A DNA stretch of 38,787 nucleotides, taken from assembly GCA_949425575.1 (NCBI GenBank), contig CASPVX010000006.1, positions 1 through 38,787 of the forward strand, written 5' to 3'. The DNA comes from an uncultured Bacilli bacterium. Its GTDB lineage: Bacteria; Bacillota_I; Bacilli_A; RF39; UBA660. The notes beneath the pieces were generated by a model. It was not told the DNA's origin. It searched no databases and saw nothing but the letters and a program-made list of their open reading frames with translations. The stretch's first letter is position 1. The number at the start of each line of letters is the position of its first letter. Below are positions 25,119-32,625 of the stretch, piece after piece. The position numbers were made by a program, and so were the translations under genes.

Positions 25119-25153
25119 GAATAGAACTGCATAGTTCTATTCATTTTTATTTT
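25119..25153 (+). terminator. Terminator of mscL (plus strand)
   Basis: GAATAGAACT-GCAT-AGTTCTATTC, a perfect 10-bp stem, followed by ATTTTTATTTTT. It includes the stop codon of the convergent YgjV-like gene. Confidence 0.85.
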
Positions 25154-25658
25154 TAACATCATAACGAATTATTGAAATCACATTTGAAACAATTATGCAT
25201 AAACATGTAAATAAATTAGCATAGGCCATAAATATTATATAATATGGTATCCACAATACTAAGCTACCTAAATTAATTAATCTAATACGTTTTTCTTGCA
25301 TTTGAATAATTGTAATTGTATGTAAAATTGCACTACATAAAGGGATTATATCAATTAATGATTTAAATGTGATTATTGATGCTATCACAGATAAGCATAG
25401 ATAAAAACATATCAATTTCCATGTGATTGGTTTTCCCTTTAAAGCATAAATGTAATTGATAAGCGTTTGTATTCCAAACACGAATTGAATAAGTGCCCCT
25501 GCATATGCTCCTAGTAATAGTAATCCTGTAGCTCCGACCGCATTAGCCAACAAGAAAAATAATAAAATCTTTTTTCTTGTTTTGCATTGCATACTGATAA
25601 CATTTAATCCGCATGCTATTAGTGCTAAAATTTGTGCTAATATAAATGTAAAACTCAA
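25137..25658 (-). CDS. YgjV-family membrane protein
   Basis: A 173-aa protein of about six membrane segments with short loops (ILAQILALIACGLNVISMQ, LLLLGAYAGALIQFVFGIQT, NYIYALKGK). The pattern fits the YgjV inner-membrane family of unknown function. It starts at a TTG (25658) after GGAGG with 7-nt spacing. It is the last gene of the operon, 21 nt after the Nudix gene, and may be the membrane component of the pathway or only a passenger. Confidence 0.78.
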   Translation of the reverse strand: MSFTFILAQILALIACGLNVISMQCKTRKKILLFFLLANAVGATGLLLLGAYAGALIQFVFGIQTLINYIYALKGKPITWKLICFYLCLSVIASIITFKSLIDIIPLCSAILHTITIIQMQEKRIRLINLGSLVLWIPYYIIFMAYANLFTCLCIIVSNVISIIRYDVKNKNE

Positions 25659-25679: not shown

Positions 25680-26123
25680 TTATCTTAACTTATAACCGAA
25701 CTTTTCTATTTCTACTATTGCAATTTCAGATAATTTAGATCTCGTTAACTGGTTAATATCATAAAATTCAGCCCCTAATGAATCATCATTATTTTCATCT
25801 AATTCCATGTGATTCTTAATTTCATTATTATATGATTCTACTTTGTAAAAAACACCTTGATGATGTATTTGTTGAAGTTCTCCTTTATGTTCCCATTCTA
25901 TTGTTACGGAATTTGCATCAAATAACGTATATTTTGTAACATCAACCCCTACTTCTTCTTGTAATTCTCTAATTAAAGTTTGTTCAGGTGTTTCACCAAA
26001 CTCAATAGTTCCTCCTGGTAAATCTAGTTTATTTTTATACGGACCATTAGCTTTTTTTATTAAAACTATCTTGTCCTCATTTAAAATCAAGCCATATGCT
26101 CCTAAATGTCTAATTTGCTTCAT
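25680..26123 (-). CDS. Nudix hydrolase
   Basis: A 147-aa protein with a full Nudix box, GGTIEFGETPEQTLIRELQE followed by EVGV, near residues 36-58, which binds Mg2+ and cleaves a nucleoside diphosphate linked to another moiety. Substrate cannot be read from the sequence. It lies 16 nt after the radical-SAM gene in the same operon, so an activated nucleotide intermediate or by-product of that pathway is a plausible substrate (inference). ATG follows GAGGGG. Confidence 0.92.
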   Translation of the reverse strand: MKQIRHLGAYGLILNEDKIVLIKKANGPYKNKLDLPGGTIEFGETPEQTLIRELQEEVGVDVTKYTLFDANSVTIEWEHKGELQQIHHQGVFYKVESYNNEIKNHMELDENNDDSLGAEFYDINQLTRSKLSEIAIVEIEKFGYKLR

Positions 26124-26139: not shown

Positions 26140-27279
26140 TTATCGTTTCAATTTTAACACATAATCATTCAGTCTAGCAACTTTTTTACTCGCAGTTGAC
26201 CATTCAAATTCTTGATAATTAACTCTACAATATTCACAAAATGGAATATCGCCATTCATAGCATCTATTGCTATCCATCCATCTATTATTTCATTTAATT
26301 CTATGTAATCGTCATCAGTGATTTCAAATTTTGTTCCATATTCATCATTTAATATTTCTATTAATAATGGGTAATAGCATTTTGAAATTTTTCCATTTCT
26401 TAAAAATCTACAAAATCTTCCCCCACATTTTTTATTAGCCTCGTAGCCCTCTTCATTTTTTAAGGTAGAAAGTGCTGTATGGAACTGATGAATAATAGTA
26501 GGTTCTTTAAAATAATCATCATTTATAAAATATTTTATGTGGTTTTCCTCAAGTCGATTAATAATTAAAGATAGTCTTTCCATCATTGGTTCATATAATG
26601 ATATGGATACAATTATATTATTTTCCCTTATGGCGTCCATCACTTTTTGACTAATTTGAGGTATTAAAATACCATTTGTAACTATTATTAATTCAGTGTC
26701 TGGCAAAGATGCTCTTGTCTTATTAAATATATTTACTATATCAGGATGAATTAATGGTTCACCACCTAATAATCTAAAACAAAGTAAAGTAAAATGCTTA
26801 TTAATTTTATCGAGATCTTTCTCCAAGTCAATAACATTTATAAAAGACGATTTGCATATATTAGAAAAATGTGAACATCCCTTACAATTCAAATTACAAT
26901 GATCAGTTATATTAGTTTCTAAATAATTTAAAATTGGTTTCCTATTTAAATCTAACATTACTAAAAAAGAATGTAAGTCTTCTAATGTTTTTATTTTTTC
27001 AAAGAAAATCTCCTCTCTAACCCAAAATACATTATTATATCCTTTTTCCTTCAAGTATTGGATTGCCGACCCTAAAAACATCGGTTTTTTGGCAATAATA
27101 ATATTAACTCCACAATCCAAGTCTATTTCATCTATATGAAAAATTGGTTTATGATTATACACTTCACTCGGAAGTTCAGCTTTATTATTCACAAAGGCGC
27201 TAATAGAGATTCCTTGCGATTCTAGGATTTTAGCTGCTTCACGAGCAAAACTACCTGTTCCAAAAATAATATTTTCCAT
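26140..27279 (-). CDS. Rossmann-like domain fused to a radical-SAM enzyme
   Basis: A 379-aa two-domain protein. Residues 1-100 begin ENIIFGTGSFAREAAKIL, a PglD-N-like nucleotide-binding fold. Residues 110-379 are a radical-SAM domain with CNLNCKGC (Cys128, 132, 135) binding the 4Fe-4S cluster and LLGGEPLIHPDI as the SAM-contact motif. More Cys occur at CGGRFCRF, ISKCYYPLL and PFCEYCRVN, like an abridged SPASM region for an extra cluster. It likely performs a radical modification of a metabolite or peptide. ATG 27279 has AAAGGTG six nt upstream and lies 11 nt after the preceding gene. Confidence 0.88.
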   Translation of the reverse strand: MENIIFGTGSFAREAAKILESQGISISAFVNNKAELPSEVYNHKPIFHIDEIDLDCGVNIIIAKKPMFLGSAIQYLKEKGYNNVFWVREEIFFEKIKTLEDLHSFLVMLDLNRKPILNYLETNITDHCNLNCKGCSHFSNICKSSFINVIDLEKDLDKINKHFTLLCFRLLGGEPLIHPDIVNIFNKTRASLPDTELIIVTNGILIPQISQKVMDAIRENNIIVSISLYEPMMERLSLIINRLEENHIKYFINDDYFKEPTIIHQFHTALSTLKNEEGYEANKKCGGRFCRFLRNGKISKCYYPLLIEILNDEYGTKFEITDDDYIELNEIIDGWIAIDAMNGDIPFCEYCRVNYQEFEWSTASKKVARLNDYVLKLKR

Positions 27280-27290
27280 TTGTCTCACCT

Positions 27291-28289
27291 TTAAATTTCC
27301 AATTTTTCTTGTTTATCCGATAATCTCTTAATTTCATCATAAAACTTAACATATAACCACTCATATTCATTTAAATGTTTCTCGGAAACCTTATATTCCT
27401 TTTCTACAATCATTTTTAATAAAGTCCAAATTCTATAAATAATAGTCCTTATAGTTTCATTTTCCGTTAATTTTTTATCATAACCTTTTAAAAAGCCTGA
27501 ACTTATATTTGGTGATATAGAATGAAAATAAAAAGTCATTAATTCATCACAATAATATAAATCAGAAAAGTCAACTATACCAACCACCTTATCATTATCA
27601 ATTATAAAATTTCCTTCCCATGCATCTACGTTAGTTAATGATGGTTGCAACACTTCATTCAAAATATTTTTAAATTTTTTTATTAGATTTAAAAGGTCGT
27701 CATAGGAAACATTATCAATTATAATATTCTTTTTTTTCGCTTCACAAATTAATATTTCAAAAAGTTTATTTACAAAATCATAGTTGCTATTAAACTGTAA
27801 TTCTGGCTTGCAAGGTAAAAAATAATTATCACTTTTTATCTTACATATTTTAGCACATATTTTTCCGATTTCCTCCTCAATTTTTTTCCGTGATGATTCA
27901 CTCATTTCTTTTTTTACATGTTCAAAAGATTGTCCCTTTATATAAGTCATTAAAAAATATGGTGTTTGATATATTTTCTTGCTATCGTCAAATAAAAGTA
28001 ATTTAGGAGATGGGATGTCTAATCGTTCTAATTTCTTTAACATCTTAGCTTCCCAAGAAATATTATTATTTTCAAATATCAACATTGTTTCGTTTTGCAA
28101 AGGAGCCACTTTTAAAACCATTTTATCTGTATTCGTTTCAATCAAATAAATGACACTTTTCATTCCCACATAAAGAATACCCACTTTAAAATCTTCTGAA
28201 TTTGGCGAAAAATAATTAGTTACTATTTTTTTTACCTCACTAATAGTAGGATAGCATTGCTGAAAATTATATAGTTTATTGTTGTTCAT
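27291..28289 (-). CDS. APH-fold phosphotransferase
   Basis: A 332-aa kinase of the aminoglycoside/choline-kinase fold. The N-lobe has MVLKVAPLQNE with the ATP-contact Lys and YFLMTYIKGQSF as hinge. The catalytic loop is NVDAWEGNF: Asp and Asn are kept, but the usual HGD His is replaced. Metal-binding DFSD follows in VVGIVDFSDLYYCDEL. The substrate is probably a small alcohol or sugar, not a protein. Its start overlaps the end of the upstream glycosyltransferase gene by 14 nt, so translation is coupled. Other readings are antibiotic kinase or LicA-like choline kinase; context favours a biosynthetic role. Confidence 0.85.
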   Translation of the reverse strand: MNNNKLYNFQQCYPTISEVKKIVTNYFSPNSEDFKVGILYVGMKSVIYLIETNTDKMVLKVAPLQNETMLIFENNNISWEAKMLKKLERLDIPSPKLLLFDDSKKIYQTPYFLMTYIKGQSFEHVKKEMSESSRKKIEEEIGKICAKICKIKSDNYFLPCKPELQFNSNYDFVNKLFEILICEAKKKNIIIDNVSYDDLLNLIKKFKNILNEVLQPSLTNVDAWEGNFIIDNDKVVGIVDFSDLYYCDELMTFYFHSISPNISSGFLKGYDKKLTENETIRTIIYRIWTLLKMIVEKEYKVSEKHLNEYEWLYVKFYDEIKRLSDKQEKLEI

Positions 28290-30309
28290 GAGTTTTAACC
28301 ATTACCTTTGGTTTTTGTTCTGGTTCCCAAACATATTTTTCACAAATTTGTTTTGTGAATTCATATTCTTCCATATCAACTGTTAGGTGGAATACGTTAT
28401 CAAAAGCATATTCATCAATTTTATTCATGAAATATTCTCTTATCCAATCTTTTATTTCAGCTATTTCTTTGTACATATAACCTTTTTTCTGACTATAGTG
28501 TATAAATCTTGAAATATCAATATTCATTTGCACTATCGCTATTGTATTGGTGGCATATCTGTCAATCAACACATTTGCCTTAAAAATTGTTACTCCAATT
28601 TTTTCGTTATTATAAAGGTAAATTTCATCCAAAAATGGTCTATATTGATCCCCCAAGTCAACAAACGTAATATCTTTTATAATAGCTTTTGTTGATAGCA
28701 TCTCAATTGCTTCGTCCATTAAACCTCCCTGTAATGAATTCCATAAAATTCCTATACAAGGTAATGTTATTTTTGGAAACTGTTCTTGATCTATTACTTT
28801 ATCTTTTAATAGCAGTTCTATTATTTTTAGCACATTGTCAATATCATGAAACTGACTAATATCGTCCGAAATAAATAATAGATTGATTATTTTATTAACT
28901 ACTCTTTGAATATCATCACAATAATAATTTTCTAAAATCCCTGTACTATAATCTCTCGCATATGTTTTTAAAACATGTGAAAGACTATTAAAAAATACTT
29001 TCTCCGCTTCGCTTTTATATTCAGTACCTAGGTTTAAAATTTGTTGATATACATCTTCTCCCCATATTTCAGTGCTAAAAAATCTTTCATCAAACTTTCT
29101 TCCAGTTAATGACATACCCCTTCTTTTAATATAATGATAATATTGGTTAGTGTCACAAACAAAACTATTAGATTTCAAACATAAATCCATCATAAACCCA
29201 GCATCTTCGTTGAACAGGCTTTCATTAAACCTAATACCCCTAATAGCATCCAACTTAAATAATTTGTCCCATACTGCTGTTGTAATCATTCCACTTAAAT
29301 GAGCGTTTAAAATTCCCTTTCTGCTGGTTGGTGTAGTAATAAGTCTTTCGTCATCTGATAAATTAATAATTTTACCATCTCTAGAGTGAACAAATGCATG
29401 TCCGCAGGAAATATCTGCACCGCTATTCAATGCGTTTTTTAACAAATTCTCATACATTGTATTGCAAATATAGTCATCCGCATCAACAAATCCTATATAA
29501 TCTCCTGTTGCCACATCTATACCTTTATTTCTAGCGTTAGATAAACCACCATTATTTTGACTTATAACTTTAATCCTTTTATCCTTCTTGGCTAATTCTT
29601 CGCATATTGTTAAAGAACCATCTGTTGATCCATCGTTTACTAAAATTATTTCTAAATTTTGATAACTCTGATTTTGGATACTTGTAACACACTTATTTAA
29701 ATATTCCTCAGCATTATATATAGGGACAACTACTGAAATCTTAATTCTATTTTGAACATTTAAATCTATAAATTGCGACAATTTTTCTTTCCATGGTTTA
29801 GCTGTATCAATGACCAAATGATACTTTTCGCTTAAATTATCATCATGGACATCATCAAGGTGGCAAAATTTAGCCATATCAATTTTACCAGCTCTTTCAA
29901 TATATCGTCTTTTCCTTAAATCATAATCTACTTCACTTTTTATAAGAATATCGCACTGAGAAAAAACCGCAGATTTTTCTAAAAAAAACCAATCAATCAC
30001 AACTGTTTCATCTGGATATTTTTTTACTTCATTTAAAATGATATTATCTATTTCTCTTTTAAAATTAAGATCCATTAAATGATTTTCTATACCTCTTCCG
30101 AAAAACGATTCAACAATATCTATATCTTTTTCAGGTTCAATGCCTAACTCATCACTCAAATATCGTTTTATTTTTGCTAATTTTCCATCTGCAATATATT
30201 TCTCGATAATTTTATCAACTTCTATATGTCTGAAGTTATATTTACCATTTAAATATCTTGAAATCTCTGTTTTACCAGAACCCACTTTACCTGTTATACC
30301 TATTATCAT
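28276..30309 (-). CDS. CoaE-like P-loop kinase fused to a GT2 glycosyltransferase
   Basis: A 677-aa fusion from ATG 30309 (SD AGGAGGG). Residues 1-185 look like dephospho-CoA kinase: IIGITGKVGSGKTEISRYL with the P-loop, VVIDWFFLEKS, and RKRRYIERAGK. From about residue 190 a GT-A glycosyltransferase starts (KISVVVPIYNAEEYLNKC), with LVNDGSTDGS and the DxD-type VDADD near 274, ending near 400. Residues 400-677 are unrecognised, mostly helical. The kinase half could phosphorylate an acceptor that the GT half extends; that is inference. I know of no standard enzyme with this order. It is the first gene of a five-gene operon. Confidence 0.88.
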   Translation of the reverse strand: MIIGITGKVGSGKTEISRYLNGKYNFRHIEVDKIIEKYIADGKLAKIKRYLSDELGIEPEKDIDIVESFFGRGIENHLMDLNFKREIDNIILNEVKKYPDETVVIDWFFLEKSAVFSQCDILIKSEVDYDLRKRRYIERAGKIDMAKFCHLDDVHDDNLSEKYHLVIDTAKPWKEKLSQFIDLNVQNRIKISVVVPIYNAEEYLNKCVTSIQNQSYQNLEIILVNDGSTDGSLTICEELAKKDKRIKVISQNNGGLSNARNKGIDVATGDYIGFVDADDYICNTMYENLLKNALNSGADISCGHAFVHSRDGKIINLSDDERLITTPTSRKGILNAHLSGMITTAVWDKLFKLDAIRGIRFNESLFNEDAGFMMDLCLKSNSFVCDTNQYYHYIKRRGMSLTGRKFDERFFSTEIWGEDVYQQILNLGTEYKSEAEKVFFNSLSHVLKTYARDYSTGILENYYCDDIQRVVNKIINLLFISDDISQFHDIDNVLKIIELLLKDKVIDQEQFPKITLPCIGILWNSLQGGLMDEAIEMLSTKAIIKDITFVDLGDQYRPFLDEIYLYNNEKIGVTIFKANVLIDRYATNTIAIVQMNIDISRFIHYSQKKGYMYKEIAEIKDWIREYFMNKIDEYAFDNVFHLTVDMEEYEFTKQICEKYVWEPEQKPKVMVKTHEQQ

Positions 30310-30546
30310 AATAAACCCTCCTATTTTCAAGTATATACCATAACCAATTACCCAATATTTAATTTAGTTGTTATACTAACATAAAAAACAAAGGAAATCA
30401 ATTATTATTAAATAGAATTATTATAAAATAATATAGTAATAGACCAATTATTTTATATTTTTTTGAAAGAAACATACTAACTTTAATCATTTTAAAAAAA
30501 AATATTAAAATAAAGAGAAAAATGTTATAATGTTTAAGGTGGTTTT
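30310..30546. promoter_or_regulatory. Divergent intergenic region with helD promoter
   Basis: A very A/T-rich gap between the glycosyltransferase operon (minus) and helD (plus). The plus-strand extended -10 TG-T-TATAAT is at 30523-30531, about 15 nt before the helD start. On the minus strand only TGGTATATA near 30335-30345 is a candidate. No ORF or RNA gene is visible. Confidence 0.45.
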
Positions 30547-32625
30547 ATGGAACAAATAAATGTGGAAAAACAACATTTGAATGAAACGTTACAAAAATAT
30601 GATGAGTTTTTGTCTGATACCAAATTAGAATTTAAAAATGTATATAATTTGAATACAAGTAAAGAGGAGGCTCAAAAACGATACAATTTTTTAAAAAACA
30701 AAATAAAAACATTAGAAACCAACATTAATAGACCCTATTTTGCCAGAATTGATTTTGAATCAAACAAGGGAGAGAAAGATGTTTGCTATATAGGAAAAGT
30801 TGGTGTCTCTAATTATGATAATGAAATCGTTGTTGTAGATTGGCGCGCTCCTATTTCTTCGTTATATTATGATTCCAACATAGGAAATACTGAATATTTG
30901 GTCGACAATCATGCTATTACTGGTAAATTATTATTAAAAAGGCAATTTGAAATACAAAATAGAAAATTAATTAATTATACAGATGTTGATACAGTTAGTA
31001 ACGATGAAATGTTAAAGCCATATTTATCTAATAATGCCGATACTAGAACAAAAAACATCGTATCCACAATCCAAAAAGAACAAAATGAAATTATAAGGCA
31101 CAGTATTGCTAAAAATCTAATAATACAAGGTGTTGCTGGTTCTGGCAAAACTACAGTGGCATTGCATAGAATTGCATATTTAGCATATACATATAGAAAT
31201 ATTATAGATAATAATCAATATATGGTTATTGGACCAAATAAATTTTTTGTAAACTATATTTCTAATATTTTACCAGAATTAGATGTTAATGATGTTAAAC
31301 AATTTGATCTAGTTGAACTAACTGAAAACTTTATTGAAGAAAAACTAATACTAGAGGATGAAGATAATACTATCAATTTTTATTTAAATGGAAATCACTC
31401 TGATCTACCAAAAATAAAGACAAGTTTGAAATATAAAAAAATTATAGATAGTTTTTTTTATAATTATTACAAAGAAATTAAAAGTAAAAAACCTATAAAA
31501 ATAAATGATTTTACAATTATAGATTATTCAACAATAAAAAAATTATGGGATGAATGTTTAACAAGAAATTATGATAATTTAAATGCAATTGTACAAAGAT
31601 GCACCATTTTGCTACAAAATCATTTTGATGAACAAAAAGATTCTATTCTTACTAAACTTAATAAATTTATAGATGATAAGATTGATAGTGGAATAGATAT
31701 TAATGAATGCCGTAAAGAAAGAGAAAATATAAAAACAAAAATATTATCAAATAATAAACAAATTATTAAAAACTACTTTAAAAATATGTTTAAAAAAACC
31801 ACTGTCATATATTCATTATTAAAAAAAGAAATCAAAAATTATACCACTGATAATACTCTGATCTCAAGTTTAGATGATAAATTGTATTATGAAGATTTAA
31901 GTGCACTATTATATATCCATTATAAAATCTATGGCTTTGGAGATAATGATAAATATAGACATATTGTTATCGATGAAGCGCAAGATTATAACGACTTTAC
32001 TTTTTATGCATTAGCTACAATCTTTCCTAAAGCAAGTTTTAGTATATATGGCGATTTGGCACAATCAATCTATTCATATCGTAGCTTAAACGATTGGGAA
32101 AGTGTTAAAGAAAATGTTTTCAAACAAAATATGGAAATTAAAAAGCTTAACAAAAGCTATCGTACTACTATTGAAATTATGGAGGAAGCTAATAAAATTA
32201 ATAATTTTTTAAATCTTGAAGCCGCAAATGCTGTTATAAGACATGGCGAAAATGTACAATATATAAAATTAGATAATACAATCTCTATTCAAATACTCTT
32301 AGATGACTTACAAAAAAAAGGGTATAAAAATATAGCAATAATTTCAAAGGATCTTAAAAAATCAAAAGATATATATGACCAGCTTAGTAATGAATCAAAA
32401 ATAATTAATATTGTTTCTAAAAACTTTGAATATTCTGATGGTATTTATTGTATACCTTGCCATCTGTGTAAAGGTCTAGAATTTGATGCAGTTATTATAA
32501 ATGAAATTGACACATATAATATTGATTCTATACTTGATATGAAATTACTTTATGTTGCTATGACAAGAGCACTACATAATTTAGTAGTCACATATAAAAA
32601 TAATTTAATAAGCATATTACGCTAA
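30547..32625 (+). CDS. helD: HelD-type RNA polymerase recycling ATPase
   Basis: A 692-aa SF1 ATPase. The N-terminus is a coiled coil (to about residue 60) used by HelD to enter the RNAP secondary channel. HelD marks follow: RPYFARIDFES, CYIGKVGV and VVDWRAPISSLYYDS. Helicase motifs are GVAGSGKTTVALHRIAYL (Walker A), IVIDEAQDYNDF (Walker B), GDLAQSIYSYRSL, and KLLYVAMTRALHNLV. It releases stalled polymerase from nucleic acid. Slightly shorter than Bacillus HelD (about 775). ATG follows AAGGTGG. Confidence 0.9.
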   Translation: MEQINVEKQHLNETLQKYDEFLSDTKLEFKNVYNLNTSKEEAQKRYNFLKNKIKTLETNINRPYFARIDFESNKGEKDVCYIGKVGVSNYDNEIVVVDWRAPISSLYYDSNIGNTEYLVDNHAITGKLLLKRQFEIQNRKLINYTDVDTVSNDEMLKPYLSNNADTRTKNIVSTIQKEQNEIIRHSIAKNLIIQGVAGSGKTTVALHRIAYLAYTYRNIIDNNQYMVIGPNKFFVNYISNILPELDVNDVKQFDLVELTENFIEEKLILEDEDNTINFYLNGNHSDLPKIKTSLKYKKIIDSFFYNYYKEIKSKKPIKINDFTIIDYSTIKKLWDECLTRNYDNLNAIVQRCTILLQNHFDEQKDSILTKLNKFIDDKIDSGIDINECRKERENIKTKILSNNKQIIKNYFKNMFKKTTVIYSLLKKEIKNYTTDNTLISSLDDKLYYEDLSALLYIHYKIYGFGDNDKYRHIVIDEAQDYNDFTFYALATIFPKASFSIYGDLAQSIYSYRSLNDWESVKENVFKQNMEIKKLNKSYRTTIEIMEEANKINNFLNLEAANAVIRHGENVQYIKLDNTISIQILLDDLQKKGYKNIAIISKDLKKSKDIYDQLSNESKIINIVSKNFEYSDGIYCIPCHLCKGLEFDAVIINEIDTYNIDSILDMKLLYVAMTRALHNLVVTYKNNLISILR

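Follow-up and report, generated by a model that had tools for sequence, protein, structure and literature searches.

A CoaE-type kinase joined to a GT2 glycosyltransferase and a predicted, divergent nucleoside diphosphate kinase fold in an uncultured Bacilli bacterium

We analyzed a 38,787-nucleotide stretch of DNA (hereafter the window; positions 1 to 38,787 of contig CASPVX010000006.1, assembly GCA_949425575.1) from an uncultured Bacilli bacterium of the RF39 lineage UBA660, and describe here a gene that joins three domains in one protein: a kinase of the dephospho-coenzyme A (CoA) kinase (CoaE) type, a family 2 glycosyltransferase (GT2) and a C-terminal domain modeled as a divergent nucleoside diphosphate kinase (NDK) fold. 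With about even confidence, we regard the product as a three-domain phospho-glycosylation enzyme for a probably soluble acceptor, encoded at the head of a small accessory operon. All three domains have folds that are already known, and for two of them the link to a known family is clear. The gene and its parts are as follows.

28276..30309, minus strand: kinase-GT2-NDK-fold fusion gene, 677 amino acids, identified as an open reading frame and by Pfam; the same architecture is found at six other loci.
29749..30309, minus strand: CoaE-type P-loop kinase domain, residues 1-187, with intact Walker A, Asp32, Arg135 and Arg139.
29110..29748, minus strand: GT2 glycosyltransferase domain, residues 188-400, with Asp276-x-Asp278 and Glu368-Asp369 in all eight aligned proteins.
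28774..29109, minus strand: C-terminal extension of the GT2 and linker, residues 401-512; stand-alone GT2 genes match up to about residue 500.
28318..28773, minus strand: divergent NDK-fold domain, residues 513-664, with invariant Tyr564, Lys577, Lys620, Arg624 and His641.

The reading frame is open from a TTG at 30330 or the ATG at 30309 down to the stop at 28276. AGGAGGG, read by eye on the reverse complement just upstream of the ATG, is a good ribosome-binding site, and this start yields 677 residues. A preliminary description of the window had placed a kinase and a GT2 in a single frame at 28276-30309, which is the frame recovered here. While a scan of genome contigs with the single protein gave no matches, an alignment-based scan gave 14 loci. 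The complete triple fusion, with the same domain order, occurs at seven loci (the window, L065, L066, L067, L156, L157 and L158); therefore, the join is not the assembly error that the preliminary description had named as a possible source. Within the seven triple fusions, 16 of 187 columns are invariant in the kinase, 60 of 213 in the GT2 and 49 of 152 in the C-terminal domain, the kinase count being lowered by deletions in five of the rows. Compared with phages and plasmids, the whole fusion had no place covering 80% of it, and the matches listed corresponded to the GT2 region. An origin from such elements was rejected, as relatives of the NDK-fold domain were absent from the viral contigs, plasmids and phages searched. 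No published description of the fusion was found in the open-licence PMC literature.

The kinase domain is a relative of CoaE, but it is not placed to serve as one. In single-sequence scans, residues 1-141 reached 23 bits against Pfam CoaE (cut-off 27) and the fusion 36.3 bits against the TIGR00152 dephospho-CoA kinase model (cut-off 65.55), both below the curated limits. Profile and fold comparisons pointed to the same family. A profile of the kinase aligned over its full length with eight canonical CoaE sequences (hhalign probability 99, E 2.4e-18), whereas only 48 columns aligned with two uridine kinases. In a PDB profile search the first eight matches were dephospho-CoA kinases (2grj, E 1.9e-12). 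A structure model built from nine rows (mean predicted local distance difference test score (pLDDT) 82.8) had dephospho-CoA kinases as its best fold matches (Z 17.8, root-mean-square deviation (rmsd) 3.2, 177 aligned residues), followed by UMP/CMP and adenylate kinases (Z about 15.8).

In a joint alignment with the eight canonical CoaE sequences, the window kinase retains Gly7, Gly12, Lys13, Asp32, Arg135 and Arg139. In mycobacterial CoaE, the critical residues for donor binding and catalysis are reported to be Lys14, Asp32 and Arg140, with Leu114 forming part of the wall of the dephospho-CoA cleft (PMC3019153). The window kinase preserves this catalytic set as Lys13, Asp32 and the arginines at 135 and 139, either of which may be the counterpart of Arg140. 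In contrast, the CoA-acceptor motifs that are near-invariant in the eight canonical sequences, which come from the same class, are replaced or absent: His-Pro is Lys-Arg, Phe-Glu of Pro-Leu-Leu-Phe-Glu is Glu-Lys, and the Gln is missing. The window kinase thus resembles CoaE (PF01121, TIGR00152) in its fold over the full 187 residues, its Walker A, Asp32 and LID arginines, and departs from it in its sub-threshold scores, lost acceptor motifs, fusion to a GT2, accessory distribution and a genus in which no coaD was found.

Catalytic residues vary among the sister proteins. The Walker A Ser/Thr is Lys in L066 and L067, Leu in L156, Gln in L157 and Glu in L158; these five have also lost Arg135, and among them only L067 keeps Arg139. 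A full ATP site is present in the window, L065, L052 and the stand-alone kinases. Asp32, Asp106 and Glu111 are found in all eight aligned proteins. Judged by these residues, the kinase looks catalytically dead in five of the seven triple fusions, which suggests that part of the family can do without the kinase step.

The genomic setting of CoA synthesis also separates the fusion from a housekeeping role. Only two CoaE-family matches are present in the window's own genome: the window fusion and a kinase-GT2 fusion on another contig, C13. No separate coaE was found in this genome, a weak absence because the assembly is 79% complete. Among 24 genomes of the genus, the own genome included, none has a canonical CoaE over the cut-off; the sole passing match is the C13 fusion, and sub-threshold matches are limited to the window fusion and genomes G015, G017 and G019. 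By comparison, 14 of 15 other members of the class have CoaE over the cut-off. CoaD likewise passes in none of the 24 genus genomes and in 12 of the 15 relatives. CoaBC was found in none of the 24, weak evidence since only three of the 15 relatives reach its cut-off. The genus, therefore, seems unable to make CoA, given 24 genomes with no coaD, no canonical coaE and no coaBC found. An acpS over the cut-off in five of the 24 genomes indicates that CoA is probably used by some members. Two genomes of the class in which TGA is read as a sense codon (G026 and G038) retain coaE without a coaD over the cut-off, so that the class does include salvage through coaE alone.

A housekeeping CoaE identity was rejected on the lost acceptor motifs, the broken P-loop in five fusions and the absence of the gene from most genus members; the fusion is probably not a CoA enzyme. 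The preliminary description had called the domain dephospho-CoA kinase type, which profile and fold bear out in spite of the sub-threshold Pfam and TIGR00152 scores, and had suggested another acceptor for it, which the retained catalytic residues and altered CoA-side motifs make probable. Its premise of CoaE as a free-standing housekeeping enzyme does not hold in this case, as neither a free canonical coaE nor coaD was found in the sampled genus. It had set against its own proposal the combination of no separate coaE and a full CoA-binding site; the former describes the incomplete genome, but the CoA site is not complete.

The GT2 assignment, also made in the preliminary description, is firm. 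Residues 192-321 match Pfam Glycos_transf_2 (PF00535) with 137.5 bits (cut-off 23.3, E 5.5e-40), and all eight aligned proteins retain Asp276-x-Asp278 and Glu368-Asp369, which we take to be the Asp-x-Asp motif and the catalytic acidic residue of GT2 enzymes. The domain is closest to polysaccharide GT2 families. It differs from PRK10073, to which it scores 144.5 of 423 bits, far under the equivalog cut-off, and from GT2 enzymes in general in being flanked by two phosphotransfer-type domains.

The C-terminal domain (residues 513-664) is, by its structure model, a divergent NDK fold missed by Pfam. The model was built from 17 rows (mean pLDDT 82.4). In a Foldseek search against the PDB, 48 of the 50 matches listed were named NDK or NME (best E 3.7e-4), and the remaining two were unnamed chains of ciliary complexes. 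VIA-align of the model gave Z 12.6 and rmsd 2.8 over 123 aligned residues. Tyr564, Lys577, Lys620, Arg624 and His641 are invariant in all 16 rows of a wider alignment, and hhalign pairs two of these, Arg624 and His641, with the Arg and the His in the active-site stretch of NDK. At the profile level, a PDB search with the domain found no match, a global hhalign of the profile gave no meaningful alignment, and Pfam NDK (PF00334) matched neither the window domain nor any of six members scanned. Five further relatives were scanned for PF00334. The best of them, the divergent relative L162, had Pfam NDK as its best family (13.6 of 27 bits, E 0.063), with residues 68-127 collinear with profile positions 65-124, and carries Asn-Ile-Ile-His-Gly-Thr-Asp-Ser. 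A canonical NDK is encoded elsewhere in the window's genome; hence, the domain is not the cell's only NDK. Compared with NDK, it shares the fold and the active-site His and Arg; it differs in lacking a Pfam match, in a KPD-motif Lys that is seemingly Trp and in being fused to other enzymes. What the preliminary description took for a 280-residue unknown region divides into the GT2 extension (about 401-512) and this NDK-fold domain. The domain is rare and patchy: with the own genome counted, profile matches occur in seven of 44 genus genomes, 13 of 386 family genomes, three of 395 class genomes (with an earlier profile) and two of 392 phylum genomes.

The three domains also occur in other combinations. 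On contig C13 of the same genome, a 510-residue kinase-GT2 fusion, which passes Pfam CoaE (46.1 bits) and fails TIGR00152 (57.7), lies at the same locus as a separate NDK-fold gene, whose 166 residues share 34% identity with the C-terminal part of the window fusion. In L069, L070, L071 and L072, each unit has a gene of its own: a radical SAM gene is followed by overlapping genes for the C-terminal unit, the kinase and the GT2. These adjacent separate genes suggest that the domains form one functional set that is sometimes fused. We also observed a HipA-like gene (labeled by motif reading; L052:11447-12367) between an NDK-fold gene and a kinase-GT2 fusion. It matches the PADLOC candidate PDC-M03A with 86.3 bits, and L073 has a similar half in fusion with its NDK-fold domain.

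The fusion is the first of five minus-strand genes, followed by an APH-like kinase, a radical SAM protein, a Nudix hydrolase and YgjV, with spacings of -14, +2, +16 and +21 bases along the run. The neighboring features are listed below.

27291..28289, minus strand: APH-like phosphotransferase; overlaps the fusion by 14 bases and adjoins it in seven of seven triple-fusion loci.
26140..27288, minus strand: radical SAM protein; also adjoins the split form in L069, L070, L071 and L072.
25680..26123, minus strand: Nudix hydrolase (MutT-like), identified by family scan.
25137..25658, minus strand: YgjV-type inner membrane protein, closing the run; one also lies beside the C13 copy.
30547..32625, plus strand: HelD-like RNA polymerase recycling motor, a divergent neighbor; NCBIfam HelD_BACSU 404.1 bits, cut-off 419.

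The Nudix gene accompanies all seven triple fusions (cut by the contig end in L067), and the radical SAM gene is full-length in five, a piece in L156 and absent from L157. Viperin-type defense was considered for the radical SAM protein and rejected: its PADLOC pVip score is weak (40.4 bits), and generic radical SAM proteins score likewise. A PADLOC scan of the APH-like protein and the fusion gave no convincing match.

The neighboring HelD-like gene resembles HelD in its score, but it falls just under the equivalog cut-off and the occurrence of such genes is patchy: a search of 59 genomes found them in 17, every one a member of the genus. Twenty-six NDK-fold loci were examined, 18 in a first set and eight found later; near-identical loci (L069-L072, L066/L067 and L077/L078) are counted separately in these raw counts. 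Of the first 18, 11 include a HelD-like gene (the window, L065, L069, L071-L074, L076-L078 and L080), and of the later eight none does, giving 11 of 26. As a control, one of 117 GT2 matches listed outside the NDK-fold loci lay within 9 kb of a HelD match; this control omitted GT2 matches inside NDK-fold loci and in genomes without a HelD search, apart from one row (G057) that was kept although its genome had not been HelD-searched, so that without this row the denominator is 116. Where a genome was searched for both, HelD is present at five of seven NDK-fold loci. The association is, therefore, strong in the window's genus and not general. As a side observation, four genus genomes (L126, L127, L128 and L129) contain two HelD-like genes flanking a radical SAM/SPASM peptide-maturase-like gene and two others, which include PP2C-like and APH-like genes in L126 and a PP2C-like gene in L127; this arrangement looks like a separate, repeated island.

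The remaining NDK-fold loci hold quite different enzymes. NeuB-type, and often NeuA-type, genes accompany the domain in L074-L078, L080, L159 and L160. In L068 (3764-9453), a radical SAM-NDK-fold fusion lies beside a SagD-like YcaO, a C39-like peptidase and a possible nucleotidyltransferase. The HipA-like fusion in L073 is next to a GT2 and another P-loop kinase, and in L079 the NDK-fold domain has an N-terminal extension and a capsule-like setting, as judged by eye. L161 (8293-17487) is a tight run of an NDK-fold gene, GTP cyclohydrolase I, radical SAM, QueC, GT2, carbamoyltransferase, methyltransferase and a sodium:alanine symporter, possibly for a 7-deazaguanine-derived product. L162 and L163 are weaker relatives. 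A gene of about 650 residues, a PfkB-like sugar kinase by eye, was also seen near L073 (12301-14238), L156 (2282-4276) and L159 (1497-3458), with a SIS-like half in the L073 copy.

We propose a phospho-glycosylation scheme for the fusion and its operon. The GT2 would transfer a sugar from a nucleotide-sugar onto an acceptor that is probably soluble and intracellular. An intact kinase, such as that of the window, would use ATP to phosphorylate a hydroxyl of the acceptor or of the new sugar; since the P-loop is degenerate in most triple fusions, this step would be optional across the family. The NDK-fold domain would handle a phosphoryl or nucleotide intermediate via its conserved His, and the operon's APH-like kinase, radical SAM protein and Nudix hydrolase may carry out further changes on the same product. 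What the domains are and how they are linked comes from computation; from this we infer the reactions, their order, the acceptor, the substrates and the role of the NDK-fold domain.

Several points weigh against this scheme. None of the three domains has a known substrate. The kinase need not be a working part: with the domain apparently dead in five of seven triple fusions, its reaction cannot be what the fusion is conserved for. The hhalign E-values for NDK homology are 0.13 and 0.013, at which sequence by itself argues weakly for the relationship. The position of the KPD-motif Lys is apparently Trp523-Asn524, as read from the end of strand 1, which makes the standard NDK ping-pong reaction doubtful. 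Lastly, the different partner enzymes across loci leave a shared substrate class uncertain. The view in the preliminary description of a kinase that probably acts on another acceptor, joined to an unknown C-terminal region, is upheld in part: another acceptor is probable, while the kinase is apparently dead in most triple fusions and the C-terminal fold can be recognized.

It is possible, though unlikely, that the fusion instead decorates a surface glycan, such as a capsule or a teichoic-acid-like polymer, with the kinase and NDK-fold domains adding phosphate to the repeat unit. The affinity of the GT2 for polysaccharide families would fit this, as would L079, the most divergent early relative, whose capsule-like cluster lies next to a sulfotransferase, and other relatives with NeuB, NeuA and a glycosyltransferase-like gene. 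However, flippase, polymerase and exporter families were not found among the genes of the window operon, and none was recognized by eye beside the fusion in L065-L067, where translation starts were inspected without a family scan. We find it quite improbable that these loci are RNA-polymerase-inhibitor islands, in which a compound targeting the polymerase would be inactivated by the GT2 and kinases, or made with their help, while HelD protects the polymerase. The enrichment of HelD in the first-set loci over the GT2 control invites this idea, and one report describes how HelD shields the RNA polymerase of B. subtilis from rifampicin and how its two-promoter control extends to phosphotransferase and glycosyltransferase family A genes (PMC12802891). 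Against it stand the later loci, all without HelD, the five degenerate-kinase fusions, which have no HelD in the stretches examined, the NeuB/NeuA-type loci, which encode sugar synthesis rather than inactivation, and the non-independence of the loci.

A further reading makes the GT2 the sole enzyme, with the kinase as a relic that presents the acceptor and the NDK fold binding the acceptor's nucleotide part. A P-loop broken in five of seven triple fusions, together with Asp32, Asp106 and Glu111 kept in all eight aligned proteins, and the apparent loss of the NDK Lys are what such binding modules might display; the full ATP site in the window, L065, L052 and stand-alone kinases, and several charged invariant residues in the NDK-fold domain, which look more like an active site, make it very unlikely. 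Farthest from the evidence is a salvage dephospho-CoA kinase with a GT2 merely fused on, which we consider highly improbable. CoaE is the closest family by profile and fold, the own genome has no other coaE, and G026 and G038 provide the precedent of coaE without coaD; however, the acceptor motifs are lost, the P-loop is broken in five fusions, and most genus members have no such gene (NDK-fold matches in seven of 44; the own genome alone over the CoaE cut-off among 24).

Beyond the phospho-glycosylation scheme, we put forward, as a speculative and rather improbable extension, that the C-terminal domain founds an unrecognized family of NDK-fold phosphotransferases. In small-genome gut Bacilli, the domain would supply the element common to a modular biosynthetic system whose other enzymes are interchangeable and are either fused to it or encoded in the same operon: GT2, CoaE-type, HipA-like and APH-like kinases, radical SAM, YcaO, NeuB/NeuA and, at one locus with a 7-deazaguanine-type operon, a carbamoyltransferase. 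The products would be nucleotide-like or phospho-sugar compounds, and in many islands a HelD-like protein would shield RNA polymerase from them.

The window fusion would be a direct case of a dephospho-CoA kinase fold leaving housekeeping for another acceptor, followed by sister proteins that appear to lose the kinase catalytic site yet keep the fusion. Its C-terminal domain points to a family of NDK-fold proteins that goes undetected by the Pfam library and recurs in combination with genes for glycosyltransferases, kinases and radical SAM proteins. Through one tractable protein of 677 residues, unknown pathways of uncultured gut Bacilli may become testable.

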